64,000 nt of DNA from Isoetes taiwanensis (Eukaryota > Streptophyta > Lycopodiopsida > Isoetales > Isoetaceae): contig JAJEKV010000026.1 of assembly GCA_021234155.1 (NCBI GenBank), forward strand, positions 18,158,617 through 18,222,616. Reading direction: 5' to 3'. Under the pieces are notes generated by a model. The model saw nothing but the letters and a program-made list of their open reading frames with translations. It did no database searches and had not been told where the DNA came from. The position numbers and the translations under genes are program-made. Shown here piece by piece: positions 40,610-64,000 of the stretch (the first letter of the stretch is position 1; every line of letters begins with the position of its first letter).

Positions 40610-41046
40610 CACTACAATTTACATTCGTATTACTAGTTAATTAGTTAGCGATATAGTCCCAAATTTAGTTAACTTTTTAACCAAAACACTACCTAAACTT
40701 ATCTTCGCACATTGTTCGGATTAGTTAGCAAAATTAACTAAAAATTAACTAAATTAGAAATTAGCACTATAGAGGTCACTTTAAGTTTAGTTAATTGTGC
40801 TTATAATTTTTATGCATTTGGTCGACTTAACTAGACATGTTCAAATAATTTAGTTAATTAGTTAAGTTATTTTTTACCAAAGCTTTTAGTGCGAATTAGT
40901 ACTACATTAAGTTAGCCTAACCTATTTTTTTTTAACTAGCACCGTGTGAAGGGAATCATCCAGCCATCGTTAACTTAATCTAGCCCTAGCTACCTCTAGC
41001 TAAAACTTACAATAAACGGAACTAAGGCCAACACCTGGTCCTCCCC
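40610..41046. repeat. Candidate left end of the large CACTA-like element
   Basis: CACTACAATTTACATTCG at 40610 is followed by TTAGCGATATAG and then about 250 bp rich in TTAGTTAA/TTAACTAA motifs. The nested relative at 50970 begins CACAACAAGA and has TTAGCGACG about 20 bases in, so the layout matches. The right end is outside the window, so the TSD cannot be tested. CACAACAAAAG at 40350 is a weaker alternative. Confidence 0.35.
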
Positions 41047-41110
41047 ACTTTCATGCGGTGGAGCCACCATGTCCTTGCCAGAGCCACATCTACCTAAGAA
41101 TGAGAAGAAA

Positions 41111-41405
41111 GGTGGACTTGGACCCCATTACCTAGTCCTCTCCACGCGAAGGTGGAGCCGAATTTGCCCTTTGAACAAGCCACTACAATTTTATTTTAAA
41201 CCTAAAAAATAACAAGTGGAACTGGAAGTGGACTTGAACCCGGGTACGTGGTCCTCTCCACTCTAGGTGGAGCCGACCGTGCCCTTGAACAAGCCACTCA
41301 TTAACCGCGGGAAACATTTATGATTGTAGTGAAAGTGGACTTGAACCGCCGTACATGGTCCTCCCCACTCTAGGTGGAGCCACTCGCGCCCTTGAACAAG
41401 CCACT
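41111..41405 (-). repeat. Three tRNA-like pol III-promoter units
   Basis: Units at 41111-41184, 41227-41298 and 41334-41405, each about 72 bases. On the minus strand each starts AGTGG, ends CCACT (able to pair) and has a B box near the end (GGTTCAAGTCC in units 2 and 3). Part of another unit is at 41028-41089. The same triple occurs at 51951-52243. They resemble tRNA-derived units but lack a clean cloverleaf. Confidence 0.6.
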
Positions 41406-41802
41406 CCATCAATTTTTTTAACCTACTTAAAACTATAAAAATAAAATGCAAGTCGATCAACTACTTACCAAAAGAAGGACGCTGCGGTACAAGATCCCGC
41501 CGGGTCCAAATCGTAATAGAAAGTTGCAACAGAAGTAACAAAGCATTAGGGTAATTTTTTGTTAGTGGTACACAAAAAAGCATGTCGCGACATTGGTGCT
41601 GGCGTGGTGCTTTTTGCCCTTCATCGAATTTCTTCATGCCCGTCACCTATTTTTTCAAGGCGCCGTCCGCGGTTCTTTGACACCCCGCCAATTTCCTTCC
41701 CATCATCCTGAATCCGTTGATCGCCAGCCATCTCGGCAATCCTAATCCTCAAGCCATCTCATCAATCCATCTCATCGATCCCTAATTTGATGCCGGAGAA
41801 TC

Positions 41803-44800
41803 ATGGCTTCAATTTTGAGTCGGTTGAAAGATTGGCGGGCAATTGAGATAGAATGGGCGGGCTTCCACGCTTTATCTTGTTTCGTAATTGATGTGCTTTC
41901 TTTTTACTGAATTTACCATGAATTGGGAGGAAAGATTTCTCCAATGCGCTTCAAGCATAGTGTCACTTTTGATGCTAAAGATTTCATAAGCGTGATCCTA
42001 ATTTGGAACAAAGAATCGGAGGAAATTTTATGCTTATACTCCCGTCTGGCAGATAATTTTCTCCAGTCAGTTCAAAATTGTCCTGTTGTGGAGAATGCAG
42101 ATAATTCTTTTCTTCCTGCTGGCGAAAGAACTGCAAATAGTGAGGGGGAATTTATTTTCACTTCTTATAATGGTAATATCTTGAATTACTGATCAATTGC
42201 TTGCAAATTATGATAGCTAACAAGTTAACCTCATTTTTCGATGAAGGTGAGGCCAATAGTCAATTCGGACCAAATGCAGACAATTGGAATCTTGTTTTTG
42301 GTGAAAGTACTGGAAATTGTGAAGAGGATTTTCGATTGAACACTCAGTCTCATGTTTGTGATGCTACCACTGATGCAGAGCCACCAAAGACATCCAATTT
42401 TGAAACAAACTGTGATGGTTTTGAAGCATTTTGTGATCTACCTACAAATTCTGGTAAGTGCTTGAAAACTGCTTTTAAATGTTAAACAGTCTTGAAATAC
42501 TAGTTTGCTAATTGTTTTAAAGGTGGTGTTGAGGTCCAGCATGAACATGGGTTTGAAGATCAGGAATCACTCTATAGAAAATTGCATGCAATGAAAAGGA
42601 GAGAACAAAGAGCAAAGAAAAGAGCAAGAGAAGCAGACTTACAGAAAGATGTCTCCAGCAGTGGACTAAGCAAGAGAAGAAAACAACAAATTTCAAAAAA
42701 AATAGCATTGTATAATAATAAGGTATGTGCAAATGCTTCACAACAAGACAGGGAAGACATTCTTGAAGGTGCTGCTAAAAGACTGCCAGAATACCAGGTA
42801 TTGAAATTGAAAGAAGTGAAAACAATGTCAACAATAGTGGAAAATTTGAGAAAATCTTTGGCTCAACATAAGTATGATAGGAAAACTGATGTGGTCAGAG
42901 CTCGAACCTCAGCAATGGTTTATGCTGTTGCCTCAGAGAAAACCAATCAGAAGGCTATCCCCGAATGTTTGAATTTGAACAGAAAATATGTTACAACAGC
43001 AGTACATAGAAGAGCAGCAGCAGAAATTGGTGAAGGTCCCTGGTCAATGTTTAAGAGACAAACCAGATGTGACAAACTCACTAATCAACAGCAAAAGCTT
43101 GTGGTTGAGTTCTGGACCAATAATTCAAGAGTGTCTCCATGCAAGAAGCATGTGATTAAAATTAGGATTGCCAAAGGCAATAAAATATTGCATCCTCTAC
43201 ATTTTTTGGAAGAGACTGAGGTTGGTTTATCTAATTTCCTTTTTTTTTTTTTTTTTTTTAAATTTACCATGCCTACAATGCTTATGGTTTTAATGCAGGT
43301 TTCATTTTATGAAAGATTTCGAAGAGAGTTTCCAAAATTCGAGGTGTCTTTCTCAGCTTTTCATGCACTGAAACCTAGCTTTGTAAGGAAAGTAAAGGAC
43401 AGGGAGACATGCTGCTGTGTATATCACATGAGGTTGGATTATGTTAGACAAGCAATTAACAAAATGAGGTTGGACACAAAGATTCATGGAAGTGAATGTA
43501 ATTGTACATGTGTTGTTTGTGGTCCTGGCCTTAAATGTGAAGCCAACTTGAAGACATACAAGTCATCAAGTGACATGTGGAGGTCATTGGTTTGTGTCAA
43601 AGATATAGCAGATGAGTGGTATCAACATAATTGCATGCTATTGAAATGCAATTCTTGTGGTCCTTCCAAATTGCCTATGTGTCCAAAGGAGTTGAATAGA
43701 GGTGCTTTGGTCACACAGCTTGATTGGAAGACATTTGATAGAGTAAACCCTTTGCATTATCTACTTTAATCTCATTGCTGTATTGGAGAATCTTTCATAC
43801 TCATTACTAAAAGAGTTTTATGTAAAATTACTGTGTTTTTGAAGCATCTACCTAACCCGATGGAACTGGAGCTTTGAAAGTAGTACCAAAACCAATAGTT
43901 AAGCTCGCTTACAAGAAGTAAAGTACTAATCACTGATATTTTGGAGTATGCTAAGAATGTATTGACAGATTTTATTCCTCACAATTATGAAGCCAGATGG
44001 CAGGCTAAATGTTTTTTAGGGATTGCTTAGCCACTTTTCCAAAAGACACCTGTTGTATCAAGAATAGACTTTCCGAGAATTACACATTCAAAATACAGCA
44101 AGAGATCCAAAGTTTGCATTGGAGGAATGATCAATGCACAATACCGGGTGCACATCACATACGTGCATGCAAATCTCAAGCAGAGGTTCAAGAAAATTGT
44201 CTAAGTAAGTGTGGAGAGGAACATCATCAAAGAGACACACTTTTATGTCTCGGATGACGTAGAGAACATGATACTCTTTGTTCAACATTGTCTTAATAAG
44301 CATGCTAAGTTTCTAGGCCGTAAAAGTGTGGATTACACCAACCATGTGATGTGGTCTGATGGTTGCTCACATCAATTCAAGGGTGCAAGAACATTTTTCT
44401 TCATTGGTAGATTTTTAAGACCTCTGAATTATTCCAATTAACTCGAATTACTTTGCCTCTTACCATGGAAAAGGTATGCCAAAGACTCCAGATTTACTTC
44501 AATTGTATGTCTCCAAAGTAAGCTTCTTTTTTGTTTGTAGGTGAACATGATGGGGTGGGGGCGTGATTAAAAGAGCACTCACACATGAAATGTTAAAGAG
44601 GAATTCTAGACCTTTAAGAGATGCTCATGATGTTGTCATATTTTGCCAGGAACACTTCAGTAATTCTGACAAGCACAGGTAAATATTGTGTTCATACTTA
44701 TATTTGTAAGCACCATTTATGAACTCATTTATTTGGCTGCAGATTCTTTTGGGAAATAGGCAAAGACGATGTGTGCAGGGATGAATTGTTTGAGTGTGCT

Positions 44801-45746
44801 ACTTTGGTAGGATCTAGCAAATTCCATAGCATTAGACCAGTCAACAACAAGGACCCTACTATGGTTGCACACATGAATTATTCCTGCTTCTGCCACCACT
44901 GTTGGTCTGCTAAGTACAGCAAGTGTATTAATAAAGAAAGAATAGGATCATGGGTTTTTTCAGAATTAAGGCCAGGAATCGAGGAGGAAATAGAAGCTTG
45001 TGATGGGCGGTGTAGGTATGAAGGTGATGCCGAGTGGAAGTCCGACATCATAGACATTGAGAGAATTTTTATTGTTGTTGCTCCAGCCAGACAATAAGGA
45101 GAAAGTTGATTTTACATTCTCAAATGTACTCGACACAAAGCATGTTGTTGAAAAAAAGCTTTCAAGGATCCCCGGGGACAGAAGTTTGGTAGGAGAGAAG
45201 TTGTAGTAATCGGTAAGTTTTATAAGTTTGTAGGTGATAATAAGTATGAACTTCTAAGACATGAACCGGATCAGTAATGTGTACGATCATTTGGTTGTAT
45301 CATGCAACTTCTGATGGAAGATATGGGAGGTAACATGTATGAGTTACAAGAGGAGGTCCATGAGCACATTCTAGAAAGTTTGCAAGCTCAATCTTCAATT
45401 CTAGCCCGTCTGTGATGCAAAGAAATAACAATAAGCTAGCGGGAGCAACAACCAAGGCCAATTCAAGAAAAGCAAAGAAAGTTGAAAAAGGAAAAACCAA
45501 GAAATGCAAAGAAAAAACAAAGCAGACAAGAAAGATGTTTGTAGGAAATTCAACAAAGCGGGGTTGCAAGCAAGGTCGGTGGTAAGGCAAGCAAGAAAAA
45601 TAGTGAAACAAGAATTAAAAAAAAATAGCAAGAAAGCCAGGACAGCAGAAAACCAAGAAAAAAAGATGTTGCAAAAGTCGAGTAAAGTTGTTGCAAACAA
45701 AACAACTACTAAGAATGGCAAGAACATTCTAAAAGGAAAAAGTTGA
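41803..45746 (+). pseudogene. DDE-type transposase of the large element
   Basis: Early exons: 41803 (MASILSRLKDWRAIEIEW), 41930-42168 and 42247-42455 (acidic), with GT/AG borders. The long exon from 42522 has a basic nuclear-type region (KRREQRAKKRAREADL) and continues to 43769, spliced over a T-rich intron (about 43222-43298). Cysteine pairs (ETCCCVYHM, CNCTCVVCG) suggest zinc binding. Beyond 43769 frames shift repeatedly: DFSENYTF-like sequence near 44070, SDGCSHQFKG near 44355 and GEHDGVGA near 44540 are the spaced D, D, E positions of a transposase family seen in many eukaryotes. The lysine-rich tail reaches 45746. Stops and frameshifts make this a pseudogene. Confidence 0.7.
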
Positions 45747-46687
45747 TGAATTAACATTCAGCACAATGCAAGCAGTGATGTATACAAATCAATTCATTCA
45801 ATATACACATTCTTTAAAACCTGCAGCTTTTAGAGTTGTGTTTATTTTGGCAAAAAATTACCCATTCAACACAAATCTAATTATACATTATTTAAAATCC
45901 ATCAAACCATTTGATTTGTGTTAAACTTGCAACAAGAAAAAGGAATGCAGAATAAACAATTCACATTAGGAATAAAACTTAAACTTTCTTTGTATTACAA
46001 AAACGCCCATGTGTGAGGAGTACATTACAAAATGCATTATGTGTATAACATTAGCATCATAAATATTAATGCCGGGTATAACAACAAAGCTCTTTCACCG
46101 ATCAAGAGCAAACTCATTCATCCGCTTGGTAGCGTGAGCCCCGATACTTCTTCAATTCAGCAAGCCAACCTACTTGGTCAAGTGTTATGTCAGTGTTTGG
46201 AATCACATCCTCTTCAAAGTTGCTTCCTCATCCTTATTAACACCTTTTCCATCATTTTGTGGAAACAACCTCAAAAACAAAACAAAAACTCAATTTCGTG
46301 GAAAGAAGTATAAAAGGAAACAAATATATTGTTAAAAAGGTTTTTAACCTTTTCTTGGACTAACATCCTTCATTTCATTGTTGTTTTGTGGACCAAATCC
46401 TGCTCAACCTTTATTTGCCACTATAAAAGATAAAAAGGAATAGATTAAAAAATAATACATCACTTATCCAAAGACCTAGTAACACTTTTACCTTCCTTAG
46501 CAGCCTGCATGTTCAAATCTGGTGCATCATTCTTCTTTGCTTTTTGAAGAGGAAGCATAGTGAGTCATCTTGATCGACCTGGAGCTTGTCCACATCAATA
46601 AGATCAACTGGGCGAAAACACCAAAAAAAAACATCATCAAAAAAGAAAAATAACACATGTAACAATTATAAATTCATTATACCTGTA
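45747..46687. other. Noncoding spacer between convergent genes
   Basis: AT-rich. Probably holds 3' untranslated sequence of both convergent genes. No open frame I can support. Confidence 0.4.
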
Positions 46688-48250
46688 TCACATCTTCTCA
46701 TCTTTTTGTAGCACTTCCGAAAGTACCAATGGTCCTCTTCCCAGCCTTCCTAATAGGTAAAAAATCTTCATCAATTTTTTACCTCTCCTTGCGCTTCCAA
46801 GACTATCTTCAAATTTCCTGGTTTTTTTCACTATCTGTTTCTTGGGAGTTGTATCTTCAATTTCCTCATCTTCTTCAAATTCCTCATCACCATCCTCCTC
46901 TTCAGCATCAGCATCTTCTTCACTCTCTACCGCCGCCGTGATCGCTTTGTATCCCAGCTTTTTTAAAAGTGCTTGAGGCACTTCAAGACCACGATTCTCG
47001 AACTATGCATGCCAGAGTTTCCAAAGACTATACTAAAGCAATACACATGATACTTGTGCTGGCAAAGAAAGCTTAACATGCATTTCATAATCAGTAGCAA
47101 GCACCAAACCCACCACGACATTGCATACCTCGTCATGCATTAGAGGAATGTGGTACTCCCCATGGTTACTCCTCGACATGCCTTTTGGACTTCACATGCT
47201 GCTGCATGAACTGCACATTTTTACAACACTTGTGCCAGTACTCCATTTTCTCTTGATACCTTGCAACATCCATCTTCAGCTTCTCAATCTCCTTTTGGAG
47301 TGCAAAATGCTGGGTTCTGTCGACTTTGGCAAGCGACCTCTCCAGCATTTCCCTTAACAACTTCTCGTCCCTTTTAAGGGTCTCGATGCATTTCTTTATG
47401 TCATCATCCGGTTCTATATGTGCTTCCATTGCTGTCCAAAGATTGTTTTTTATCCTCAATAGCTTCCAGCAGGATAACAATTTTTGTCGAAGACCTTGTA
47501 CAAAGACCTTCGAAATTCTCAACAGATCCTCTTGTTTCTTCAGTATGTTCATTTCATCAATTTGTTTGAGCTCGTTCAAGCTGTTTATGACATGCAGAAT
47601 GGCCTCTATGCTTTTATTGAAATAAGACCCATCATTTCTTGACCTCTTGTCCATTGAATCTCTCAGAAGCCCGAGCTGCAAACGGCCCAATTCACCTTGT
47701 ATTTCTCCTCGATTAAGACGAAGCTTTTAACAGTGTTTTGCCACACAAAGGCATTGAGAAAGCCGAGTCCTACACTCATTGTTGGTGAGGCCCCTTTGAT
47801 ATATCTTGGAAATCGATCTTTTAGCTTGGTGGCATAATCGCTTTCGAACCATTTTGACATGAATCTTCCCTTTAACCAAAGGGGCTTTCCATATCTCATT
47901 CCAATCACGGAGAAACATCTTTCCACTTAATTTCTTTCGGCTTTGTGCCAAGACTACATAAATCTCGCAATGAAACAAACTCACCTCCGAAAGCAATTTT
48001 CATCTCAATCAAAAGGAAAAAATAATCGGTTTCATAACAGAAAAAAAACAGTCTTCAAAGCTAATTCACAGGGCTTACCTCCTTAACTTCGCTTTGCCAT
48101 GGCCTTACAAACAAAGTAATTTAAGAAATCGGGTGTAATCGAGAAGATGAAATAGCGCTTCTTAAGAGGAACAGAGATATCGGGCTTTTCAAGAATACAC
48201 CAAAAGGGGTCGAATTTGAGATCAAACGGCTCGGTCTACTTAATGAATTC
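46688..48250 (-). pseudogene. Coiled-coil accessory gene of the large element
   Basis: Minus strand, convergent with the transposase. Pieces in order: about 48245-48090 (FDLKFDPFWCILEKPDISVP), 47926-47690 (GRFMSKWFESDYATKLKDRF), 47690-47166 with a long coiled coil (KKCIETLKRDEKLLREMLER; EKLKMDVARYQEKMEYWHKC) and 46981-46688 with an acidic run (EEEDGDEEFEEDEEIED) before a basic stretch. The frames at 47690 overlap out of phase, indicating an intron or frameshift. Coiled coil plus acid/base tails would suit a DNA-binding partner like TNPA of En/Spm; this is inference. Confidence 0.5.
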
Positions 48251-48508
48251 CTGATTGTGGGATGAATTATATGTCAATTCACTAGATCATACTCATTTCT
48301 TTTGATAATTGGCATGATGGGATTCAGACGCCTTTTCTACCAAAGACTTCATTACACACATCCCGACTTCATAGACCATCATGAACCCTTCAACTTGGCA
48401 CCCTTCACTTCTTCATTTCGCCCACCGAAAAAAGCGCTAAAAAAAGGTGCTGGAGACGTGCTAAAATTTTGTTTTTTTGTATACCACTAATATAAACATA
48501 CCCATTAG

Positions 48509-49316
48509 AAGAATAAGAACAAAGAAGAAAAAGATCGAAGAAGAAAGAAAGGAAAAAAAGGGGGGGATAGAAAACAAGAGATAGAAATAAAACAAGAGAA
48601 AGAAATAAGAGAATACAAAGGAAGAAATAAGGATAGAATAGAGAAGAAATAAGAGAAAGAATGAAGAAAAATAAGAGGAAATAAGAGAAGGGAAGGGAAT
48701 AGAATGGAAGGAAGAAATAAGGGAAGGGAAAGAAAAGGATCCAATGGAAAGTGAGGAAGAAATGTGAAGAATAAGAAACAAATGAAGAATGAAGAAATGA
48801 AATTAAAAAGAATGAAGAATAAGAAATGAAAAAAATGAAGAATAAGGAAGGGAAGAGAAGAAAGAAATGAAGGAAGGGAGGGGAAAGAATGAGGAATGAG
48901 AAAGCATGAGAAAGAATGGAAATGAGAAACAAATGAGAAAGCATGAGAAAGAAATGAGAAAGAAATGAGAAAGCATAAGAAAGAAATGAGAAAGCAAGAA
49001 ATGAGAAAGAATGAGGAAGAATGAGAAAGAGTGAGGAATAAAGAATGAGAAAGCATGAGGAAGAAAGAAATGAGAAAGAATGAGGAAGAAAGAACGAGAA
49101 AGATGAGAAAGAAATGAGGAAAGAAGAAATATGGGAAGAAAGAATGAGGAAAGAATGAAGCATGGAGAAGGAGGAAGAATGAGGAAGAAATGAAGCATGA
49201 GGAAGAAAGAAGGAGGAAGAATGAATGAGGCATGGAAGAATGGGAAGAAAAAAAATCAAGAACAAAGAAGAAGAGGAAGGAAAGGAAACCAAAAAAAGAG
49301 GAAGGTTGGGCATGCA
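48509..49316. repeat. 800-bp polypurine (GA-rich) tract
   Basis: The plus strand is almost all A and G, built from variants of GAATGAGAAAGA and GGAAGAAAGAA. The long open frames on the opposite strand (F, S, L-rich) are a by-product. A shorter homologous tract is at 52378-52700, at the same relative position in the nested element. Confidence 0.85.
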
Positions 49317-49720
49317 CCATTCAATCCAAAAAACCTATTCAATCTAAAAAACATGATATACTAACCTTAGAATAGTTGCTTGCAGGTAGATCAGGGTACT
49401 AGCGCCGCGGATCGCCCAAGAACCTCGAAGAAGTAGGGGAAAAAAAAGTTAGGGAAAAGCCGGCGCCCAGCTGGTTCAAAATTACGAGCGTCAAGATAAA
49501 TGCGCCACGTCGCATGCGACGTTATTTCAAACCGTGATAAATAGGTTTTATGTCGCATGCTTCCATGCGAATTTTTTGTTATAGCGACGTTATTTTTGCA
49601 TCTTTTTTAATGTGATGCTCATTAAAGTTTGTCCCTAGGCTTATTTGAACAGTCCCGAGGCATGCATGCAAATAATCACATTCGGATTCTATTACTACCA
49701 AATAAAAATTTTGGTGGCCT
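49317..49720. repeat. GCGACG block shared with the nested element
   Basis: Shares ATTCAATC(C/T)AAAAA, CATGAT(A/C)TACTAACCTT, GTTATAGCGACGT and the following AAAGTTTGTCC segment with 52715-53192. Contains ACGTCGCATGCGACGTTAT (palindromic, 49506-49524). In both copies the tandem array starts soon after. Confidence 0.65.
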
Positions 49721-49849
49721 AAATATATCTACCGAACGTGAAGTTGGTTTTCCTAAATATCGCCATGAAAAGAACAATTATTTGTATGAGCGAAGTCGAA
49801 TCGCCAAGTCCTCGGGACTACGCCTCGAGACGCTTTTACGATTTGACAG

Positions 49850-50969
49850 ATCTCCCCGAGCAGTCCGTTGAACAAGGGCATTATCTCTATCCATATGCCT
49901 TGATAATCGAAACACAAACCATCATCACAAGCAATCAAATCTAAATCCCCCAACCCCAACCCGTCTTTTGCTTTTCTCAGAATCATTTATCTTCATTCTA
50001 GTAGTTATGATGCTTTTCTCAGAATCATTTATCTTCATTCTAATAGTTATGATGCTTATATTCTCAATGCAATCTTAGACCAAGTATAACGCCCAAATGA
50101 GCCAAGGTCAACCCCAAGTACAAACGATCCCACAAACTCCATTCCTTTGACCTTAGCTAACCCTTTGACCTAGACCTTCTCCGAAAATTCCCAAAATTGG
50201 GCTATGTGGGCCGAGATGAATTAGAATTCAAATGGCAAAAATCAGAATTTATTTTCAGAAATGCATTAATTACTTAATTTATGAATGTCTTGCCCACTTT
50301 GCAAAAGCGCCCGACTTCTACTTTTGCCACATCGGAGGAGGACAGGCTCCAAACTCCCGCCCGTCGGCCCCCTTGTTCAGATTCTCGGCGCAAACTTCTG
50401 CCCAGTCCCAAGCGTAACAGACCAAGTCTCGCCCCCAAAACGCGAACCCTTCTAGAACCTCGCAACCCACGTGGTTTTACGTTTTTGAGGCCCTCTCCTT
50501 TGTCGATTCGACCGGGACCTTGCGCGTGACTTGACGTGGGAGTGGGGGTGTTGACGCCTTGAGCACGGACCCTAAAATCCCCCTGGTCGCTGCCCCGAAT
50601 TTCCCTCTCCCCAAGGCCTCTGGGATCCGACGGGCGACCTCCCCTCTGAATCACGATTTGGCTCGCTTAATGGACTCTAACGTCGACATTGCCCTAGGGA
50701 CCAAGTTCCGGGCCGGGAAGACCAAAACTCGCCCCCCAAACGCAAAAACCCTTCTATAACCCGACAACTCCGTGGTTTTACATTTTCGAGGCCTTCTCCT
50801 TGTCGATTTGGTCGACCTTGCGCCGCGTCTTGACGTGGAGTGGGGGTGTTGACGCGAGGCGGGACCCTAAAATCCCCCCTGGTTGCTTGCCCGAATTCCG
50901 CCCATTACAAGTTAATTATGCCATCCATGTCAAATAGCTTTAGGAGCAAAACCGCTGAACAAGGGCATT
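49850..50969. repeat. Start of the outer 1.1-kb tandem array (type B)
   Basis: Part of one monomer, then a monomer with the phase mark GCATTAATT at 50263 that is cut at 50969 by the nested element. It holds two related 150-bp segments (about 50400-50565 and 50715-50870) around GTCTTGACGTGGAGTGGGGG. Array continuation is at 57822. Confidence 0.75.
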
Positions 50970-51217
50970 CACAACAAGAAAAAGGGTCATTTAGCGACGT
51001 CTATAGCGATGAATCGAACGACGCCTATGCGACGCCCGACGGCGTCGCCGCATTTACGCCTCCAATACGACGTTGCGCATTATCGCCGCGATCGCGACGC
51101 ATCCGTGGCGTCGACGTCGACTTCGCCGGCGCCGTGGCAAACGTGGACTCGTGATGCGGACTTCGACCGCCGGCGTCGCTCAGAGCGTGGACGCCGCGCC
51201 GCACGGCGTGGGTGGAC

Positions 51218-51278
51218 CAAAAAAAAAAAAAAAAAAAAAAAATTAAAAAAAAATTTAAAAAAAAAAAAAAAGGAAAGA
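51218..51278. repeat. Poly(A) tract
   Basis: A nearly pure A run of about 55 bases with two short T interruptions, directly after the GCGACG-rich left end. It may be the tail of a retroposed sequence or simple expansion; no TSD found. Confidence 0.6.
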
Positions 51279-51318
51279 ATTTTAATAGTTAGTTACAATA
51301 TCATATAAGAAGAGGCGC

Positions 51319-51764
51319 TTAGTAGTGGCTATCTTTACGGTTCCCCGTTAGGGGAAAACCCGTGATAGCCAATTCTATAACAATACGACCAATATTAGAC
51401 AATGACATTGAAAAGTTAACGTGAACTAAGAGTTTATAGCACTTACTTAATCTATTTCGGCCGCCAACCCAAGTGAGACTAATTGCTTTTGCTTGAAGTT
51501 GCCTTGGCGAAACGGGTGAGGCGTGATTTTTCTTGGAATCCTTTGCACGCTCGAAAGTGATCCGATTGCAAGGAATACAACATGACAAGTTAAATGTCTT
51601 ATTTCTCGAATTGAACGAATGGCAACAAATAACAAATACCTTGATATCTTCCTTATGGACATTAATGGTTTAGGGACCTTTGACCAATCGCCTCCCAATT
51701 TTTGGGCATTCGACTTCAATTTTGCAATCACTTTTGCCTTTTCTATAAATCGATAGATTAACAC
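51319..51764 (-). pseudogene. Gene remnant inside the nested element
   Basis: Minus-strand coding pieces in two frames: KAKVIAKLKSNAQKLGGDWS then VPKPLMSI (51764-51650), and ERAKDSKKNHASPVSPRQLQ with SNIGRIVIELAITGFPLTGN (51588-51320). No counterpart is visible in the outer element and I recognise no family. Likely a remnant of an element gene. Confidence 0.35.
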
Positions 51765-51950
51765 AAAACAAAAGAATAAAAATAAGACTATGACTAGGTC
51801 ATGTACCTTCTTTTTGAAGCAGCCCCCATCATCTAAAATGAGCCCCTTCCAAATCCGGATTAGTCGGATTAAAAGCTAGAGTTGGCTAACATACGCTTTT
51901 AGGGTTATAAGCTTGTGATTTGGCCACCTCTACCTAAGAATTACAAGAAA

Positions 51951-52377: not shown

Positions 52378-52700
52378 TAAGAACAACGGAAAAAAAAGAA
52401 AAAAAAAAAAAAAAAAGATGAAGAAATAGTAAAAAAAGAAAGAAAAAAAATGAATGAATAAAAGAAGAAGAGAAGGGTGGAGAAAGAAGAGAAGGGGAAA
52501 GAGGAGAAAAAAAAATTAGGGAAGAAAGAGAAGAATGGAAGAAATAAGAGAATGAAATGGAAGAAGATAGAAGAATGGAAGAATGGAAGAATGGAAGAGT
52601 GAAATAAGGGAAGAATCGAAGAAAGAAATGAGGAAAGAAGGAAAAAGAAGAAGAATGCAGAAACAAGAAGAAGAAAAAGAAGGAAAGAGATAGAAAAAAA
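52378..52700. repeat. Polypurine tract of the nested element
   Basis: GA-rich, about 320 bp, the short counterpart of 48509-49316. It explains the F and S-rich frame on the minus strand here. Confidence 0.8.
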
Positions 52701-52714
52701 AATTTGAAATCTAC

Positions 52715-53192
52715 ACTAAATCATTCAATCCAAAAAACCATTCAATCCAAAAAGCATGATCTACTAACCTTAAAAAGAGTGCTTGCAAGTCGCTCAAGGT
52801 CAGAAGCGCCAAGATCGCCCAAAATAGTCGATAGAAGGAAGCCTAGGAATGGTCCCTAAAAGACGGCCATTGTGGATCAAAAAACACGGCCACGACGTCA
52901 CGCGACGTCAAGATAAGTAATTTTTTGAATCAGATATACGATTTTGAAATCGATATACGATTTTCAAAATCGTATATACGATTTCAAAATCGTGATATAT
53001 AACGTCGCGATGCGACGGTCCGCTGACGATATTTTGTTATAGCGACGTCTAACACTTTTTAATTTTTTGGTGCCTTTTTTTCATCTGATGGTCATGAAAG
53101 TTTGTCCTTATGCTAATTTGGACATTCCCGAGCCATATATGCAGTCAAAATCACATTCTGGATTTAACCAATCTTCTATTGCTACTACTTAC
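52715..53192. repeat. GCGACG block of the nested element
   Basis: Counterpart of 49317-49720. It includes four alternating CGATTTTGAAATCG-type palindromic units at about 52930-53000 and GTTATAGCGACGTCTAAC at 53035. Confidence 0.65.
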
Positions 53193-56100
53193 GAATGTTT
53201 GAGCCCTGGGGTGGCATGTTTGAGCCCAGGGTGGCGGTTTGATAAGTTCTCCTGACGATGTTGGATTTTTTGGCCCTTATCGAACGAGGGCCCTTGAACG
53301 AAGGATTCAAATCTCGGATAGGGGAACCGAGATCCTGGAGTGTGGTCTTTAGCGCCGCGTGGCCCCCGCCGCCAGAAAGGCTGCCTCTGGGAAACTTTTT
53401 GGGGCTCGCCTCTTGGGTTCGGACTCTCCCTCTAATGAGACCGGCCTTGCAAGGTCCTGGCCTTGTTTGACTTTGGGCAAGTGTGCAAAGCTACCGTGCA
53501 AACGCCCAACAACAGTGCCGTTTCGGACCGCTCTAATGCAAACACTTTGATCTAAACCTTGTCCGAAATTTTGAAAACCGCATGTATGTTGGCGATAACT
53601 TTAGGAAGCCTCCGCACAAAAAAATCAGAATTTAATTCCGTACTATGCATTAATTACGAATTTATGAATGTCTTGCTACCGCAAAAAGTCGCCTTTTACT
53701 TAACCGCCACAACGGGAGGAGTACAGATCCAAACTCCATTCCGGCCAGGCCTCTTGCTTCTCTCTCAACCGTATCTTATCTACCAAGTCCCAAGTAAAGG
53801 ACTGTAAACTCGGCAAGACCCAAAACGCAAACCCCCGCTAGAACCCTCGCAACTCATAGGGTTTACGCTTCGAGGCTCTACCTTGTCGATTCGACTAGGA
53901 CCTTTGCGCCGGTCTTGACGTGAGGGGGTGTTGACGCGAGCACGGACCCTAAAACCATCCGAAGGCGCTTTGCCCCCAAAAGTCCTCTCCCGGCTCCCCG
54001 GGCGACGGACGGGCAACTTCCCCTCCTCCCATCGTGATTCGCTCGCCAATGGACTTAACGCCGACATTGCTCTAGGGACCAAGTTTAATGGCCAAAAGAC
54101 CACCCCTCTCGAGGTAGCGGCCAAACTATCTCATGTCCAACACACTTCGTAGTCAATTGGCCTAGGAGCCGGCACCGGCCGGTCAATCGCAAACGTAGGG
54201 CGTAAGTGTTTTTCTTTCTTTGCAAAACCGACCGCGGCAACTTGGTCTCTAGGGTAACTTCGCCTCCCTAACGATGTGGCGAAGTCGAATCGCCATTCCG
54301 AGTTCCGCAATGTCCGAACGACAAAACACTTTGGTTTCTACACGGCCGACCGCTAGACGCTTTCGGGTTTGATAAGTTCTCACCGGACGGATGTTGGATT
54401 TTTTTTTTGACCTTATCGGTGATGGGCCCTTTGAACGGGCGGATTCAACGGCCGGATAGGGGAACCGAGATCCGGAGTGTGGTCTTTAGCGTCATCGGCC
54501 CCCGGGAGCCGCCTGCCAGAAAGGTCGCCTCGAAACTTTTTGGGGCTCGCCTCCCCGGGTCCGGACTCTCCCTCTAATGAGGTGGCCTTGCAAGGTCTGG
54601 CCTTATTTGACTTGGGCAAGTGTGCTTTTCGGGCGCCCAACAACAGCTGCCCTGACCGTTCTAATGCAAACACTTTGATCTAAACCTTGTCCGGAAATTT
54701 TGAAAACTGGCCTCAGTATGTTGGCGATGACTTAGGAAGCCTCCGCCGACAAAAAAATCAGAATTTAATTCCATACTATGCATTAATTACGAATTTATGA
54801 ATGTCTTGCTACCGCAAAAGTCGCCTTTACTTAACCGCCACAACGGAGGAGTACGTATCCAAAATCCATTCCGCCGCCAGCCCTTTGCTTCGCGCTCTCA
54901 ATCGCATCTTATCAGCCAAGTCCCAAGTGCAAAGGACCAAAACTCGGCACCCAAAACGCAAACCCCTCGCTAGAACCCGCAACTCATGGGTTTATGTTTC
55001 GAGGGCTCTATCCTTGTCGATTCGACTAGGACCTTGCGCCGCGGTCTTGACGTAGAGGGGGTGTTGACGCCGAGCACACGGACCCTAAAACCATCCGGAA
55101 GCAGCTTTGCCCCAAAAGTCCTCTCCCGGCGGCCCCGGTGACGGACGCAACTTCCCTCTCCCGAATCATGATTCGGCTCGCCAATGGACTCTAACGCCGA
55201 CGCTGCCCCTGGGACCAAGTTTCATGGCCAAAAGACCACCCCTTCGAGGTAGGCGTCAAACTATCTCATGTCCAACACACTCGTAGTCAATTGGCCCTAG
55301 GAGGTGGTCACCGAATCACCGCAACGTAGGGCGTAAGTGTTTCTTTCTTTTGCAAAACTGACCGCAACTTGGTCTCTAGGGTAATTTCGCCTCCCTAAGA
55401 TGTGCGGCGGTTGAATCGCCATTCCGGAGCCTCCGCGAATGTCCGAACGACAAAACACTTTGGTTTCTACACCTGGCCGACCGCGGGGACGCTTCGGTTT
55501 GATAAGTTCTCACGGACGGATGTTGGATTTTTTGACCTTATCGAGACAAAATTCCTTGAACGGAAGGATTCAACGGCGGATAGGGGAACCGAGATCCGGA
55601 GTGTGGTCTTTAGCGCACGGCCCCCCGGGAGCCGCCTCCTGAAAGGCCTCGGAAACTTTTTTGGGGCTCGCCTCCCGGGGTCCTGACTCTCCCTCTAATG
55701 AGGTGGCCTTGCAAGGTCCGGCCTTATTTGACTTGGGCAAGTGTGCCGCCTCACCGCCCAACAACAGTCGCCCCTGACCGCTCTAATGCAAACACTTTGA
55801 TCTAAACCTTGTCCTAAAAATTTTGAAAACTAGCTTGTATGTTGGCGATGACTTAGGAAGCCCTCACCGACAAAAAATCAGAATTTAATTCCATACTATG
55901 CATTAATTACGAATTTATGAATGTCTTGCTACTACAAAAGCCGCCCTTTACTTAACGCCACAACGGGAGGAGTACAGATCCAAACTCCATTCCGCCGGGC
56001 CCCTTGCTTCGCGTTCTCAACGCATCTTATCGGCCAAGTCCCAAGTGCAAAGGACCAAAACTTCGCACCAAAACGCAAACCCCGCTAGAACCCGCAACTC

Positions 56101-57240
56101 ATGGGGTTTACGCTTTGGAGGCTCTATCCTTGTCGATTCTCGACTAGGACCTTGCGCCGTGTCTTGACGTAGGGGGGGTGTTGATGCCAGAGCACGGACC
56201 CTAAAACCATCCGAAGCAGCCTTGCCCAAAAGTCCTCTCCCCGGCCCCCGGCAACGGGGCGGGCAACTTCCCTCTCGGAATCATGATTCGCTCGCCAATG
56301 GACTCGGAACGCCGACATTGCCCCGGGATCAAGTTTCATGGCTTAAAAGACCACCCCTTCTCGAGGTAGCGCCAAACTATCTCATGTCCAACACACTCGT
56401 AGTCAATTGGCCTAGGAGGTGGTACCGCCGAATCACCGCAACGTGGGGCGTGTCAGTGTTTCTTTCTTTTTTGCAAAACCGACCGTGCAACTTGGTCTCT
56501 AGGGTAATTTCGGCCCTCGACGATGTGGCGAAAGTCGAATCGCCATTCCGAGCCTCCGCGCAATGTCCTAACAACAAAACACTTTGGTTTCTACACCTGG
56601 CCGGCCAGACGCCAGCGGTTTGATAAGTTCTCCTGACGGATATTGGATTTTTGGACCTTATCGAGCCGTGGCCCTTGAACGGCGGATTCAACGGCTTGAT
56701 AGGGGAACCGAGATCCCGGGAGTGGGTCTTTAGCGCACGACCCTCCCGGGAGCGCAAGGAAAGGTCGCCTCTGAAACTTTTTGTGGCTCGCCTCTTGGGG
56801 TTCGACTCTCCCTCTAATGAGGCGGCCTTTGCAAGGTCCTGGCCTTGTTTGACTTGGGCAAGTGTGCCAGCTCTACGCCCAACAACAGCCGCCTTGACCG
56901 CATTTTAATGCAAACACTTTGATCTAAACCTTGTCCGGAAATTTTGAAAACCGGCATGTAATGCTATTGGCGACTTAAAAAGCTCACGACAAAAATCAGA
57001 ATTTAATTCCTTACTATGCATTAATTACGAATTTATGAATGTCTTTGCTACTTGCCTAACAACAGTCGCCTAGACCGCTCCAATGCTACCTATTTGATCG
57101 AACTTTATCCGAAATTCTAAAAATTTGCCTCAGTATGCTGGGGATGACATAGGAAGCCAACCGACAAAAAATCAGAATTTAATTCCATACCATGCATTAA
57201 TTACGAATTTATGAAGCATGAATGCAAAAGAACGATAACT
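53193..57240. repeat. Inner tandem array, 1.12-kb monomers (type A)
   Basis: Phase mark GCATTAATTACGAATTTATG occurs at 53647, 54780, 55900 and 57018 (spacing 1133, 1120, 1118), then prematurely at 57194. Other marks repeat in step: GGTTTGATAAGTTCTC at about 53237, 54367, 55496 and 56619. Monomers are alignable with the outer type B monomers but form their own subfamily (TTTGATAAGTTC against TTTGACAAGTTC). Short open frames recur once per monomer with no protein similarity I recognise. Confidence 0.85.
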
Positions 57241-57540
57241 AAAAAAATTCTCGTGATCGAAAAAGGTGGAATTTTGACAAGCGGTTACGCGTGCGGTCAT
57301 GGACATGAGAAAACATTTCACTAGGATATGCAGTGTTGGTGCACGATGAAATAGCTCGAAGTCTTCCGTAGCTCACATGTCGCCACAAAAGTTCTCTTTA
57401 ATGAAGGCCCCGGCGATGGACGAAGCAATTTCCCCTCTCCAAAACCATGATTTGGCTCTTCCAATGGACCTCGTATTATCGACATTACCCCGGGGACCAA
57501 CTTTCGCGGGCCGAAGACCACCCTTGTTCTCCAAAAGAAC

Positions 57541-57821
57541 AAAGTACACTAGACGCCCGCCAGACGTCCCGCCGACGACGTCACGTCGCCGCGACGCGAC
57601 GCCACGCCGCACAAAAGTGACGCGACGCTGCGATGCGACGTGGTGCACTGGCGCGTGATTGATCTCCGCCACGTCATTTGTCGACGTCGCGACCATTGAC
57701 GCCGCATGCGACGTATGCGCGCGTGACGCCGCATTGACGCCGCATGGTCGCACGTATTTGCGACGCCACGCCGCACGGGCGCCGCAAGCCCACGCCGCTA
57801 AATGTCCATTCTCTTGTTGTG
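57541..57821. repeat. Right subterminal GCGACG region and TIR
   Basis: CpG-rich, built from GACGCCGC, GCGACG and CACGCCGC variants, mirrored by 50990-51200 at the left end. The last 29 bases are the terminal inverted repeat. CACTA transposases bind such subterminal motifs in known cases. Confidence 0.7.
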
Positions 57822-60800
57822 ATTCTCTCTATTCATATGCCTTGATACCTGAAACACAACCATCATCACAAGCAACCAAATCTAAAACCCCCCTCCCCCC
57901 CAACCCGCAGTAGTCTTTTTGCTTTTCGTAAATCATTTATCTTCATTCTAGTAGTTATGATGCTTTTCAGAATCATTTATCTTCATTCTAATAGTTATGA
58001 TGCTTATATTCTCAATGCAATCTTAGACCAAGTATAACGCCCAAATGAGCCAAGGTCAACCCCAAGTACAACGATCCCACAAACTCCATTCCTTTGACCT
58101 TAGCTAACCCTTTGACCTAGACCTTCTCCTAAAATTTTCGAAAATTGGGTTGTAGGCTTTGGAGATGGATTAGGAATCGGTGGGCAAAAAAATCGAAATT
58201 TATTTTAAAACAATGCATTAATTGCCAATTTATGAATGTCTTGCCATCAAAAAAGCCCAATTACATCGGAGGAAGATGCACCAAACCCCTCGCTCCGTCA
58301 GTTCCTTGCTCAGTATTCTCCGGCCGCGGCTTCTTACCCGATTCCAAGTGCAACGGACCAAGTCTACCCGCCCCCAAAACGCCAAACCCTTCTAGAACCC
58401 GCAACCCACCGGGGTTTACGTTTTGGAGGCTCTCTCCCTTGTCGGTTCAAAGGGACCTTTAGCCAGTGACTTGGCGATGGAATGGGGGTGTGACGGCAGA
58501 GCACTAACCCTAAAATCCCCCTAAGCCGCCATCCCGGCCTCTCTCCCAAGGCCCTCGGGGCTGACGCGCGACCTCCTCTCGAATCGCTGATTTGGCTCGC
58601 CAATGGACTCGAACGCCGACATTGCCCCAGGGGACCAAGTTCCTTGGCGAGAAGACAACCCGACCTCCAAGAAGCGCCAAAGTAGCTCACTTCCATCACA
58701 CTCGTAGTCAATTGGCCTAGGATGTGGATCTTGGGGATAATTGTCGTGGGAGGGTGGAGTGTTTCTTTCTTTTGCAAAACCGACCTTGTAACTTGCCCTA
58801 GGTAATTTCGCCATTCCTCGACGATTTGGCGGGTCGACCGCCATTCAGAGCCTCCCCTGCGTGCCCGACGACAAGACACTGCGGTTTCTACAAGGTCAAT
58901 CCTCGGGCGCCCAGGTTTGACAAGTTCTCCTGACCGATCACGGAATCTTTTGGGCCTTCCCAAAGGGGCCCCCGAATCGGAGGATCCAACGGCCGGATAG
59001 GGGCAGGGCTCCGGAGGGTGGTCATTAGCGTCTGACCCGGGGGGCGCCGCCCCAGAAGGGCTACCTCGAACTTTTTTCGATCCCGCCTCTTGGGGTCCGG
59101 ACTCTCCCCTCTTGTGAGGGATCCCCCCCAAGGTCCCGGCCCTCGCTTGACTTGGGGAAGGGTGCCTTGGCTTCGGTTGCCACAGCGGGCTGCCTGACCG
59201 TTCTAAATGCTAACCCTTTGACTTAGACCTTCTCCAAAAATTTCAAATTGGGGTGTCTTTGGAGATGGACTAGGAATCCACGGCAAAAAAAATCAGAATT
59301 TATTTTCGTACAATGCATTAATTGCGAATTTATGAATGTCTTGCCAATTGCAAAAGCGCCCCCCGACTTCTACTTGCCACATCGGGAGGAGGACATGCCC
59401 AAACTCACTCCGTCAGTTCTCCTTGCTCCGTATTCTACGCAGCTTCTCGGCCGGGTCCCAAGTGCAGGGACCAAGTCTCGGCCCCAAAACGCAAACCCTT
59501 CTAGAACCTGGCAACCCACAGGGTTTACGTTTTGGAGGCCCTCTCCTTGTCAGATTTGGCCGGGACCTTGCGCCGTGACTTGACGTGGAGTGGGGGTGTT
59601 GGCCTTGAGCACGGACCCTAAAATCCCCAAAGCTGCTTGCCCCGTTTCCTCTCCCCAAGGCCCCGGGGGGCGACGGCAACCTCCCTCTCCCGAAATCATG
59701 ATTTGGCTCTGCCAATGGACTCCCAAACGCCGACATTGCCACAGGGGACCAAGTTCCGCGGGCGAAGACCAAAACTTCGGCCCCAAAACATAAACCCTTC
59801 TAGAACCCGACAACTCCACAGGGGTTTACATTTCGGAGGCCCTCTCCTTGTCTCCATTTGGCCGGGACCTTGCGCCATGTCTTGACGTGGAGTGGGGGTG
59901 TTGGCCTTGAGGCGGGGACCCTAAAATCCCGGAAGTTGCTTGCCCCGAATTGGGTTCATTACAAGTTAATTATGCCATCCATGCCAAATAGCTTTAGGGA
60001 GCAATCCGTTGAACAAGGGCATTCTCTCTATCCATATGCCTTGATACTACACACAAACCATCATCACAAGCAACCAAATCTAAAACCCCCTCCCCAACCC
60101 GCTAAAGAGTCTTTTGCTTTTCTCAGAATCATTTATCTTCATTCTAGTAGTTATGATGCTTTTTATGTAATCATTTATCTTCATTCTAATAGTTATGATG
60201 CTTATATTCTCAATGCAATCTTAGACCAAGTATAACGCCCAATGAGCCAAGGTCAACCCCAAGTACAACGATCCCACAAACTCCATTCCTTTGACCTTAG
60301 CTAACCCTTTGACCTAGACCTTCTCCTCAAAATTTCAAAATTGGGTCATGTCTTTGGAGATGGATTAGGAATCCAAACGGCAAAAAATCAGAATTTATTT
60401 TCGTTACAATGCATTAATTGCGAATTTATGAATGTCTTGCCCATTGCGCAAAAAGCCCCCTAATTACATCGGGAGGAAGACATGCACCCAAACTCCGCCC
60501 GCCGGTTCCCCTTGCTTCTCAGTATTCTCCTACTGCAGCTTCGCCCAATTCCAAGTGCAACAGACCAAGTCTCGGCCCCCAAAACGCAAACCCTTCTAGA
60601 ACACCGCAACCCACGGGTTTACGTTTTGGAGGCTCTCCTTGTCGATTCGGTACGGACCTTTGCGCCGTGACTTGACGTGGAATGGGGTGTTGGCCGCCGT
60701 GAGCCACGGACCCTAAAATCCCCAGGCTGCTTTGCCCAATTTCCTCTCCCCAAAGGCCCTGGGGCCGGACCGAATACCTCCGCTCTCGGATCGCGATTGG

Positions 60801-63800
60801 CTCTGCCAATGGACTTAGAACGTCGACATTGCCATAGAGACCAAGTTCCTTGGCCGTAAGACCACCACCTCCAAGAAGCACCAAAGTAGCTCACTTCCAT
60901 CACACTCAGTAGTCAATTGGCCTAGGATGTGGATGCTGGATAATCTTGTCGTGGAGAGGCATGAGTGTTTCTTTCTTTTGCAAAACCGACCTTGTAACTT
61001 GCTCCCTAGGGTAATTTCGCCATTCCTGACGATTTGGCGGGGTCGATCTGCCATTCCGAGCCTCCCGCGTCGGCGACAAGACATGCGGTTTCTACAAGGC
61101 CGACCTCGGGGCCGCCCGCGGTTTTGACAAGTTCTCCGGACCCATCCGGAATCTTTTGGGCCTTCCCAAGAGGGGCCTCCGAATCGGAGGATCCAACGGT
61201 CGGATAGGGGACCCGGGCTCGAGAGGGTGGTCATTAGCGCAGCAAAGGGAGCGTTGCCGGAAGGGCTACCTCGAACTTTTTTTCATCCCCTCTTGGGGTC
61301 CTGGACTCTCCCCTCTTGTGAGGGATCCCTCAAGGTCCCGGCCTCGTTTGACTTTGGGAAGGGTGCCGGCTTGGTTGCCCTGCAACGGGCTGCCCCGACC
61401 GTTCTAATGCTAACCCTTTGACTTAGACCTTCTCCCAAAATTTCGAAAATTGGGTTGTGTGCTGGAGATGGACTAGGAATCCAGCTGGCAAAAAATCAGA
61501 ATTTATTTTCGTACAATGCATTAATTGCATTTTCTTTCAATTGGCCTAGGATGTGGATGTGGGATACTGTCGTGGAGGGCGTGAATGTTTCTTTCTTTTG
61601 CAAAATCGACCTTGTAACTTGCTCCCTAGGGTAATTTCACCATTCTGGACGATTTGGCAGGGTCGATCTGCCATTCGAACCTCCGATTTTTCGAGCGACA
61701 AGACACTACGGTTTACGCAAAGTGACCTCGGGGCGCCCAGCGGTTTGACAAGTTCTCCCGGACCCGATCACGGAATCTTTTGGGCCTTCCTTGAAGGGGC
61801 CCTGAATGGAGGATCCAGCGGTCGGATAGGGGAGCCGGGCTCCACCATGAGGGTGGTCGTGGCGTCTACGGCCCGGGGGGCTGCTAGGGAAGGGCTGCCT
61901 CGGGAACTTTTGGATCCCGCCTCTTGGGGTCCGGACTCTACCCTCTTGTGAGGGATCCACAAGGTCAGTCGGCCTCGTGGCCTCGTTTGACTTGGGGAAG
62001 GGTGCCGGCTCGGTTGCCACAGCAGGGCTGCCAAACCCGGCCGTAATGCTTTGACCCTAGACCTTTGACCTAGACCTTCTCCGAAAATTTGAAAATTGGG
62101 TTGTGTCTTTGGAGATGGATTAGGAATCTAGGCGGCAAAAAATCAGAATTTATTTTCGTACAATGCATTAATTGTGAATTTATGAATGTCTTGCCACCCT
62201 CGCGCCCCCCGGACTTCTACTTGCCACATGGGAGGAGGACAGGCCCAAACTTTGCTCGTCCAGTTCCCCTTGCTCCATATTCTCGGCTGCGGCTTCTCGG
62301 CCAGGTCCCAAGTGCAACAGACCAAGTCTCGCCCCCCAAAAACATAAACCCTTCTAGAACACAGCAACCCACCCGGGGTTTACGTTTTGGAGGCCCTCTC
62401 CTTGTTAGATTTGGCCGGGACCTTGCGTGCGTGACTTGGCGTGGAGTGGGGTGTTGACGCTAGAGCCACGGACCCTAAAAATCCCCGGCCGCTTGCCCAA
62501 TTTCCTCTCCCCAAGGCCACAGGGGCCCGGACCAGGCGACCTCCCTCTCCCGGGAATCGCGATTTTGCTCTGCCAATGGACTCGGAGCGTTGACATTGCC
62601 ACAGGGACCAAGTTCCGTGGCGGAAGACCACCCGACCTCAAGAAGCGACAAAGTAGCTCACTTCCATCACACTCGTAGTCAATTGGCCTAGGATGTGGAT
62701 CTGCGGGATCTTGTGTCGTGGGGGGAAGTGAGTGTTTCTTTCTTTTGCAAAACCGACCTTGTAACTTGCTCCTAGGCTAATTTACCCATTCGGACGATTT
62801 GGCGGCGGTCGATTTGCCGATACGGAGCCTCCCGGTGCGAGCGACAAGACCTTGCGGTTTCTACAAAGGCCGACCTCGGGGCGCCCCAGCGGTTTGACAA
62901 GTTCTCCGGACCGATCTGGAATCTTTTGGGCCTTCCCAGAAGAGGGGCCCTGAGCAGACGATCAGCGGTCGGATAGGGGAACCCGGACTCCGGGAGGTGG
63001 TCATTAGCGTGCAGACCCCGGGGCGCTGCCGAGGAAGGGCTGCCTCGGGAGCGTTTTGGATCCCGCCTCTTGGGAATCCGGACTCTCCCTTCTGGCCTCG
63101 TTTGGCTTGGGAAGGGTGCGGCTCCCGGTTGCCACGCAATGGGCTGCCCGACCCGTTCTAATGCTAACCCTTTGACCTAGACCTTCTCGAAAATTTGAAA
63201 ATTGAAATTTGTGTCTTTGGAGATGGATTAGGAATCAATTGGCAAAAAAATCAGAATTTATTTTAGTACAATGCATTAGTGCGAATTTATGAATGTCTTG
63301 CCAACCAAGCGCCCCCGACTTCTTTGCCACGCCGGGAGGAGGGCTGAGGCCCAAACTACGCTCCGTCGGTTCCTTACTCCGTATTCTCATTTGCGGCTTC
63401 TCGGCCCGATTCAAGTCATGAGACCAAGTCTCGGCCCCCCAAGCATAAACCTTCTAGAACACAGCAACCCCACGGGGTTTCGTTTTGGAAGCCCTCCTTG
63501 TCAGGTCGGCGGGACCTTGCGCCGTGACTTGGCGTGGAGTGGGGGTGTTGGCGCGAGCCACGGACCCTAAAATCCCGGGCGCTTGCCCCATTTCCTCTCC
63601 CAAGGCCACAGGGACCGACAGGCAACCTCCCTCTCCCGGAATCGCGATTTGGCTCTGCCAATAGACTCAGGCTTGTCGACATTGCCACAGGGACCAAGTT
63701 CCGTGCCCCGAGAGACCACCCGACCTCAAGAAGCGCCAAAGTAGCTCACTTCCATCACACTCGTAGTCAATTGGCCCTAGGATGTGGATGCGGGATACTG

Positions 63801-64000
63801 TCGTGGAGGCGTGAGTGTTTCTTTCTTTTACAAAACCGACCTTATAACTTGCTCCTAAGATAATTTCGCCATTAGGACGATTTGGCGGTCGATCGCCATT
63901 CGAGCCTCCGGTGCCCCGACGACAAGACACTGCGGTTTCTACAAAGGCCTCGGGGCGCCCAGCGGTTTGACAAGTTCTCCCCGGACCGATCTGGAAGCTT
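57822..64000. repeat. Outer 1.1-kb tandem array (type B), to the edge
   Basis: Phase marks at 58215, 59315, 60411, 61518, 62165 and 63273 give spacings of 1100, 1096, 1107, 647 and 1108. The 647-bp monomer (61518-62165) has lost about 450 bp after its phase mark. Two monomer kinds alternate irregularly: one with the TTTGACAAGTTCTCC half, and one (59315-60411, and the interrupted 50263 monomer) with GAACAAGGGCATT instead. No gene recognised; the open frames are short and recur with the monomer. Confidence 0.85.

Follow-up and report, generated by a model that had tools for sequence, protein, structure and literature searches.

Tandem arrays of 1.1-kb monomers inside CACTA-type transposons of Isoetes taiwanensis

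The window analyzed here is a stretch of 64,000 nucleotides from Isoetes taiwanensis (C1030:18158617-18222616, on contig JAJEKV010000026.1), taken from a 1.66-Gb assembly over which the genome-wide searches were run. It holds two related copies of a transposable element, hereafter the outer and the inner copy, each with an array of monomers of about 1.1 kb. Together with relatives elsewhere in the assembly, these copies in all likelihood represent a family of the CACTA (En/Spm) superfamily whose members carry the monomer array as an inherited internal module that is moved as a unit. Terminal inverted repeats (TIRs), target site duplications (TSDs), remnants of the transposase gene TNP2, arrays lying inside the element ends, shared monomer types, and co-location of array and element among the matches listed were observed directly. 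An earlier note, made from the letters of the window, had proposed that the array is built into a CACTA-like element and that the element disperses it. The first proposal is borne out in both subfamilies (on the outer side by two complete relatives with TSDs at both ends, and on the inner side by all three elements with both ends read), and the second is supported by the genome-wide co-location and by the TSD-bounded elements with the array inside.

Complete elements and assignment to the CACTA superfamily

Eight loci with relatives of the outer copy (outer-type relatives) were fetched, all of them chosen through matches to the array, so that the presence of an array in every one proves little. 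Two of these loci contain complete elements with CACAACAAG inverted ends and an internal array. The element on contig C985 is 27,321 bp long, is flanked by the TSD GGG and has 8,264 bp (30%) of array; that on contig C1067 is 25,047 bp long, is flanked by the TSD TAC and has 6,158 bp (25%) of array. No match to the monomer of type B (described below) was found in the short flanks fetched with them (533 + 146 bp for C985 and 1146 + 807 bp for C1067). The order left module, triple (a threefold repeat), polypurine tract, connecting module, and array was the same in all eight outer-type relatives fetched. Read along the transposase strand, the complete relatives consist of the right TIR with GCGACG subterminal repeats, host-gene-like fragments, TNP2, the array, the polypurine tract, the triple, the left region, and the left TIR, with about 2 kb between the DUF4218 match at the end of the TNP2 gene and the start of the array.

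The transposase was recognized in C985 by Transposase_21 (PF02992, TNP2) matches in two frames (E 2.2e-8 and 7.5e-8, both above the cut-off) on the minus strand right of the array, and by a DUF4218 match (E 1.3e-7, above the cut-off, in a search covering five of the six frames) on the same strand about 2 kb from the array end. The Transposase_21 and DUF4218 matches in C1067 were weaker and fell below the curated cut-offs. For a TNPA-like second protein, the left region of C985 was searched in six frames, with no Pfam match up to E 0.01. The right part of the complete elements contains fragments upstream of TNP2 on the transposase strand that are apparently captured pieces of host genes, namely SET (1.3e-4, just above the cut-off) and SNF2-related (8.1e-6, just above the cut-off) in C985 and B3 (4.1e-8) in C1067.

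The inner copy of the window is a short derivative, and two further elements of its type were read to both ends. One, on C907 (L040), is about 7.95 kb long with the TSD AAC and one monomer more than the inner element of the window; the other, on C1031 (L041), has the TSD TTT. Both align to the inner element of the window at about 86-87%, and a homologous array is enclosed in each of the three.

A 3-bp TSD was found at all five elements with both ends read (GGG, TAC, ATT, AAC, and TTT), and short CAC-initial TIRs, CACAACAAG, at both ends of each. In the two 300-bp ends taken together, GCGACG/CGTCGC occurs 13 times in the inner element (5 in the first and 8 in the last 300 bp, versus 0.8 per kb elsewhere in it), 16 times in C985, and 21 times in C1067, compared with 0.8-0.9 per kb inside the elements and a shuffle maximum of 3. 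The 3-bp TSDs, the CAC-initial TIRs, the TNP2 remnants, and the subterminal GCGACG repeats place the family in the CACTA (En/Spm) superfamily. The termini of the five elements read CACAA and not the literal CACTA motif. Variants of the terminal CACTA motif occur within the CACTA superfamily. That motif gave the superfamily its name, according to the available part of PMC4158355.

On C908 (22138841-22173050), two same-strand elements have their modules 19.66 kb apart, and the right region of one breaks off into the left region of another. A tandem duplication of a whole element, as a route from transposon to satellite, was considered for this pair and rejected: the 2.6 kb compared are only 90% identical, so the pair does not stem from a recent duplication.

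Insertion of the inner element into the outer array

Self-comparison of the window bore out the observation of the earlier note that the same modules follow one another in both copies: triple, polypurine tract, short GCGACG stretch, and array of about 1.1-kb monomers. The monomers of the two arrays are alignable, as it had stated, at about 68-74% identity (BLAST). It had also placed the inner array between TIRs and TSD and the inner element in the array of its relative, and both statements hold. The ends CACAACAAG...CTTGTTGTG and the TSD ATT surround the inner array. An uninterrupted outer monomer at about 60011-60040 supplies the empty site: the left flank of the inner element can be aligned with it as far as 60024 and the right flank from 60021 onwards, and the overlap consists of the TSD ATT plus one chance C. 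Since both flanks match one uninterrupted outer monomer, the inner element was inserted into the outer array.

Inner-type arrays were found at a minimum of 11 loci on nine contigs, namely C1030 (the window), C908 (two loci), C1031 (two loci), C1029, C907, C1041, C1067, C1040, and C1048; this count is a lower bound, given that the search with the inner monomer scored 11 of 5184 first-look candidates. The arrays have from 1 to 8 full units per locus across the 11 loci listed (the window included), and two partial end units (1 to about 444, then 269 or 291 to 433) are common to seven of the 11.

Monomer types and inheritance of the array

A tree was built from 65 monomers of outer-type relatives and the window, cut at a common anchor and aligned; one window row (57029-58226) spans the right end of the inner element and is not a true monomer. 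The tree separates two monomer types, A and B, both of them represented in every one of the eight outer-type relatives. Within B, the three full monomers of the window's inner element form a separate clade and are 0.75-0.76 identical to the nearest outer-type monomers. Identities were averaged over the eight outer-type relatives with all window rows excluded. Monomers of type A had a mean identity of 0.878 within elements (47 pairs) and 0.891 between elements (253 pairs), those of type B 0.882 within (66 pairs) and 0.867 between (462 pairs), and A and B monomers of one element were 0.694 identical to each other (90 pairs). The array begins with A in all eight relatives, and in six of them all A units precede all B units; the exceptions are C1059a, where the types alternate (AABABABAB), and C908, where the array goes back to A. 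In the alternating array (C1059 3617000-3636999; L020, L021) the B units are about 82-84% and the A units about 89-93% identical to their nearest relatives.

The survey of array length that the earlier note had suggested gave anchor counts of 6 (C1067), 8 (C985), and 11 (C1089), the lengths at the remaining outer-type loci being lower bounds or irregular where the array is cut by the fetched stretch or interrupted. The recurrence of types A and B, with monomers nearly as alike between elements as within them, indicates that the array travels with the element. To judge from these comparisons, the array was most likely present before these copies spread, and its length differs from one copy to another.

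Genome-wide co-location of array and element

Words from A, B, the triple, and the left module were searched genome-wide with up to 2 mismatches, together with reversed control words. The A word was found 506 times, the B word 5184 times, the triple word 239 times, and the left-module word 272 times; the reversed controls gave none. Co-location and clusters were counted among the matches listed (the first 100 places per word), all of them exact. For the A word, 95 of the 100 listed places were used and five on contig C1026 were left out; these places are not independent, several stemming from one array. A left-module or triple word lay within 20 kb upstream on the same strand at 79 of the 95, compared with an element word downstream at 8 and on the opposite strand within 20 kb at none.

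The reverse relation was examined for 16 listed left-module words on contigs up to C107, with some inner members of B clusters omitted and both cluster ends kept. An A or B word was found downstream within 12 kb at 10 of these and within 25 kb at 12, and upstream at one; for two of the four places with no such word downstream, the contig itself begins 2.6 and 8.3 kb away on the side where the array would be expected. The earlier note had named family members lacking any array as evidence against its proposal; this sample of 16 sites gave no such refutation.

The first 100 B words among the matches listed fall into 34 clusters, of which 20 have two or more hits, and the longest spans 13.3 kb. 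A classical satellite would form arrays of tens of kb up to Mb that exist independently of mobile elements; none was seen among the matches listed, and the long ordinary satellite that the earlier note had weighed against its own proposal was likewise not seen in this sample.

Features of the window

The features located in the window and the gene fragments in the two complete relatives are collected in Table 1.

Table 1. Coordinates of the features discussed; positions refer to the window unless a locus is named
Feature	Position	Strand	Remarks
Inner CACTA element, short derivative with internal array	50970..57821	+	6852 bp; TIRs CACAACAAG...CTTGTTGTG; TSD ATT
Left TSD copy (ATT), inner element	50967..50969	.	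empty site in outer monomer
Right TSD copy (ATT), inner element	57822..57824	.	
Left TIR and GCGACG subterminal repeats, inner element	50970..51210	+	
Right GCGACG subterminal repeats and TIR, inner element	57560..57821	+	
Inner triple of about 116-bp repeats	51923..52358	+	84% identical to outer triple 41083-41523
Inner polypurine tract	52390..52700	+	
Inner tandem array	53236..57215	+	three full monomers (about 1.12-1.13 kb each) followed by two partial ones (unit positions 1-444, 269-433)
Left module of outer element	40525..41082	+	internal to family, no terminus; homology to relatives begins here
Outer triple repeat	41083..41523	+	90-93% over about the whole length in 7 of 8 relatives fetched
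Outer polypurine tract	48510..49290 (about)	+	
Module joining polypurine tract to array, with degenerate monomer remnant	49250..49870	+	82-87% in 8 of 8 relatives
Outer array, part left of inner insertion	49858..50969	+	
Outer array, remainder	57822..64000	+	five anchor positions including partial and rearranged units; reaches window end
Unrelated nested element	41550..48502	+	6953 bp; TIR GGTA...TTAGTGGTA; 6-bp TSD CATTAG
SET and SNF2-related fragments, C985 element	L037 about 1689-2030; 5607-5813	-; +	
B3 fragment, C1067 element	L038 5817-5978	+	

The outer copy is incomplete on both sides. The earlier note had put its left end near 40.6 kb; this had to be given up, as homology to the relatives starts at 40525 and the relatives continue 5.4 kb further to the TIR. 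The candidate left terminus CACTACAATTT near 40610 was rejected: the alignment with the relatives passes through it without a break, and their CACAACAAG terminus, where reached, lies about 5.4 kb beyond it to the left. Comparison of window 1-40524 with C1041 did not reveal the missing left part (E 1e-10, pieces >100 bp). Beside the broken left side lies a dispersed repeat (39700-40319) with about 40 other places in the genome (77-89% in the main matches), many of which end at the position corresponding to about 40319. The rightward extension suggested in the earlier note, meant to reveal a terminus and a TSD, led into a run of 38,007 N bases that follows directly on the right end of the window, so that the outer array cannot be traced to its end; the 1993 bp beyond the run had no similarity to the window or to the relatives' loci compared.

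The label "tRNA-like", which the earlier note had applied to the triple, found no support. ARAGORN reported one tRNA-Ser in the outer triple and none in six fetched loci with the relatives' triple, and Rfam at the gathering score gave nothing in window 40500-64000; the triple is a threefold repeat of about 116 bp. The C985 triple, when compared with the outer triple, is broken into pieces of 95% and 84%.

The outer triple is parted from the outer polypurine tract by the 6953-bp element, two test segments of which match no fetched stretch of the eight relatives. A part of it (42700-43700) was found at 39 or more further places at 87-98%, with 40 of the 604 candidates scored. No Pfam family matched the plus-strand frames of 41600-46002, and the sole match in the minus-strand frames of 45901-48452 was PUB2_N (E 0.093, below the cut-off). 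The element possibly represents an undescribed DNA transposon family.

Elsewhere, on C1059 (L022, L023, and L039 joined), the sequence CACTACAAG, as at the ends of other CACTA families, was found at position 19639 within the interrupted C1059b array, where the monomer anchors are 8.9 kb apart. From this, arrays may receive further CACTA insertions.

Interpretation and alternatives

The following course would account for the observations. A TNP2-type transposase would act on the CACAACAAG ends, move the whole unit, and leave a 3-bp TSD, and each insertion would seed a new site with a ready-made array, of 3 to 11 monomers where the copies were measured as far as both array ends. Array copy number would then drift between copies, most simply through unequal recombination, slippage, or excision-gap repair. 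The short inner-type derivative would have kept the ends and the array without the long coding part and would be moved by TNP2 supplied in trans; one such derivative inserted into the array of a larger relative. The gene fragments would have been acquired from the host. The movement of the array-containing unit is the best-supported step, resting on anatomy, TSDs, and co-location, and the drift in array length is what we infer beyond it.

Several points weigh against an array that is moved with its element, and some of them speak for an ordinary dispersed satellite, into or beside which CACTA elements merely insert. The outer copy is not demonstrated as a whole element, being broken at 40525 and having its right end beyond the N run, and the TNP2 matches lie in broken frames, which leaves present-day mobility unproven. 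No exact left-module or triple word was found upstream of 16 of the 95 listed A words. Conversely, among the element words listed, only 43 of 96 from the left module and 29 of 50 from the triple have an exact A word within 20 kb downstream (upstream, two of each do). B words exceed left-module words about 19-fold, above the prediction from the fetched elements, and an exact left-module word lies upstream within 30 kb of only 13 of the 34 listed B clusters (11 of the 20 with multiple hits), leaving 21 without one. From this excess and these clusters it follows that some B arrays probably have surroundings that are diverged, truncated, or limited to the array. Exact-match listings miss diverged copies, but members that are truncated or lack the array, and arrays without an element, may exist. 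One inner element did, moreover, insert into an array. A satellite that merely receives insertions is nevertheless very unlikely: five elements hold the array between TIRs and TSDs, the module order is identical in all eight relatives, the co-location is specific in strand and direction, and no listed B cluster exceeds 13.3 kb.

The slight excess of B identity within elements also counts against inheritance and would suit the amplification of each array locally from one monomer after insertion of the element, as would the variation of array length between copies and the clustering of several C1041 B monomers in the tree. This is highly improbable as the main process, however, since A monomers from one element resemble each other no more closely than those from different elements, all eight relatives have both monomer types with A leftmost, and the same end units are found at seven of the 11 inner-type loci listed. 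Local amplification can still adjust array length within an array that is inherited with its element. A further question, compatible with such inheritance, concerns origin only: the family's ancestor may have captured an unrelated satellite once, as has been suggested for Chenopodium quinoa, instead of the array having been born from the element. This is quite possible, falling a little short of probable. The G+C content of the array, 0.535 in C985 and 0.556 in C1067, is higher than that of the remaining element sequence (0.42 in both), and one B monomer, searched in six frames, had no Pfam match up to E 0.1, tnp2 included; on the other side, no stand-alone source satellite was identified, and the degenerate monomer pieces that flank the array inside the element are compatible with either origin.

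That the array is a maintained working part of the element and not cargo seems unlikely, and the thought arises from the observation that two subfamilies (about 75% monomer identity) have both retained an array of several units at the corresponding position, with end units that recur, and that this holds even for 7-8 kb derivatives lacking the long coding part. Such an array could be a spacer, a transcription stop, a chromatin boundary, or a binding platform for transposition or escape from silencing. Its retention in both subfamilies is suggestive of function but could be plain inheritance.

Comparison with known systems

The family provides a clear case of a cut-and-paste transposon shipping tandem arrays: complete elements with TSDs are present, the two subfamilies have diverged, and a left-module word occurs 272 times in the assembly. 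Array lengths and monomer trees among dated insertions would thus allow a test of the transposon route by which satellite repeats become dispersed. Full-text searches of the literature yielded no paper recognized as dealing with this CACTA family, and a species-specific report could have been missed. The foldback transposon Tetris of Drosophila virilis, whose superfamily differs from CACTA, is reportedly another DNA transposon linked to satellite-like tandem repeats. The CgHINE Helentrons of oyster, which according to the accessible part of PMC9659126 can propagate their central tandem repeats, are DNA transposons with satellite-like repeats as here, and belong to a different superfamily.

Tandem repeats tied to CACTA elements are described in the available portion of PMC7320549, namely the Afa and TM-2 repeats of Triticeae, which deletion derivatives of CACTA elements gave rise to, and CficCl-61-40, with a 40-bp minisatellite monomer derived from a tnp2 fragment of the element Jozin. 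The present arrays resemble CficCl-61-40 in their tie to a CACTA element and differ from it as there portrayed in that the B monomer is without a Pfam match, tnp2 included, and in that the listed clusters span at most 13.3 kb.

The closest counterpart is Jozin itself, described in the accessible text of PMC8978399 as a 16.5-kb CACTA element of Chenopodium quinoa with Transposase_21 and a 5,550-bp array of 171-bp monomers (32.5 units) near its 3' end. According to the same text, the array is found in CACTA-like elements on four scaffolds, elements of this kind have gene fragments in their 5' region, and capture and spread of the array by CACTA elements were proposed (PMC8978399). The idea of the earlier note that a mobile element carries and spreads satellite-like arrays is therefore not new as such, since satellite DNA arrays inside CACTA elements are already in print there; new relative to that text are the monomer length, the two monomer types, the element size, and the two subfamilies. 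The present family is a known kind of element but an unusually large, well-preserved example. The repetition of the Chenopodium layout, with 5' gene fragments and an array past the 3' end of the transposase, suggests that the 3' part of CACTA elements may tolerate or favour tandem arrays. As far as the available text of PMC8978399 allows the comparison, the two systems share a CACTA element with Transposase_21, a satellite array in the 3' region, gene fragments in the 5' region, and an array present in several copies; they differ in that the elements of I. taiwanensis are 25-27 kb long, have 1.1-kb monomers of two types, and form two diverged subfamilies that both keep the array, one of them including a short derivative.

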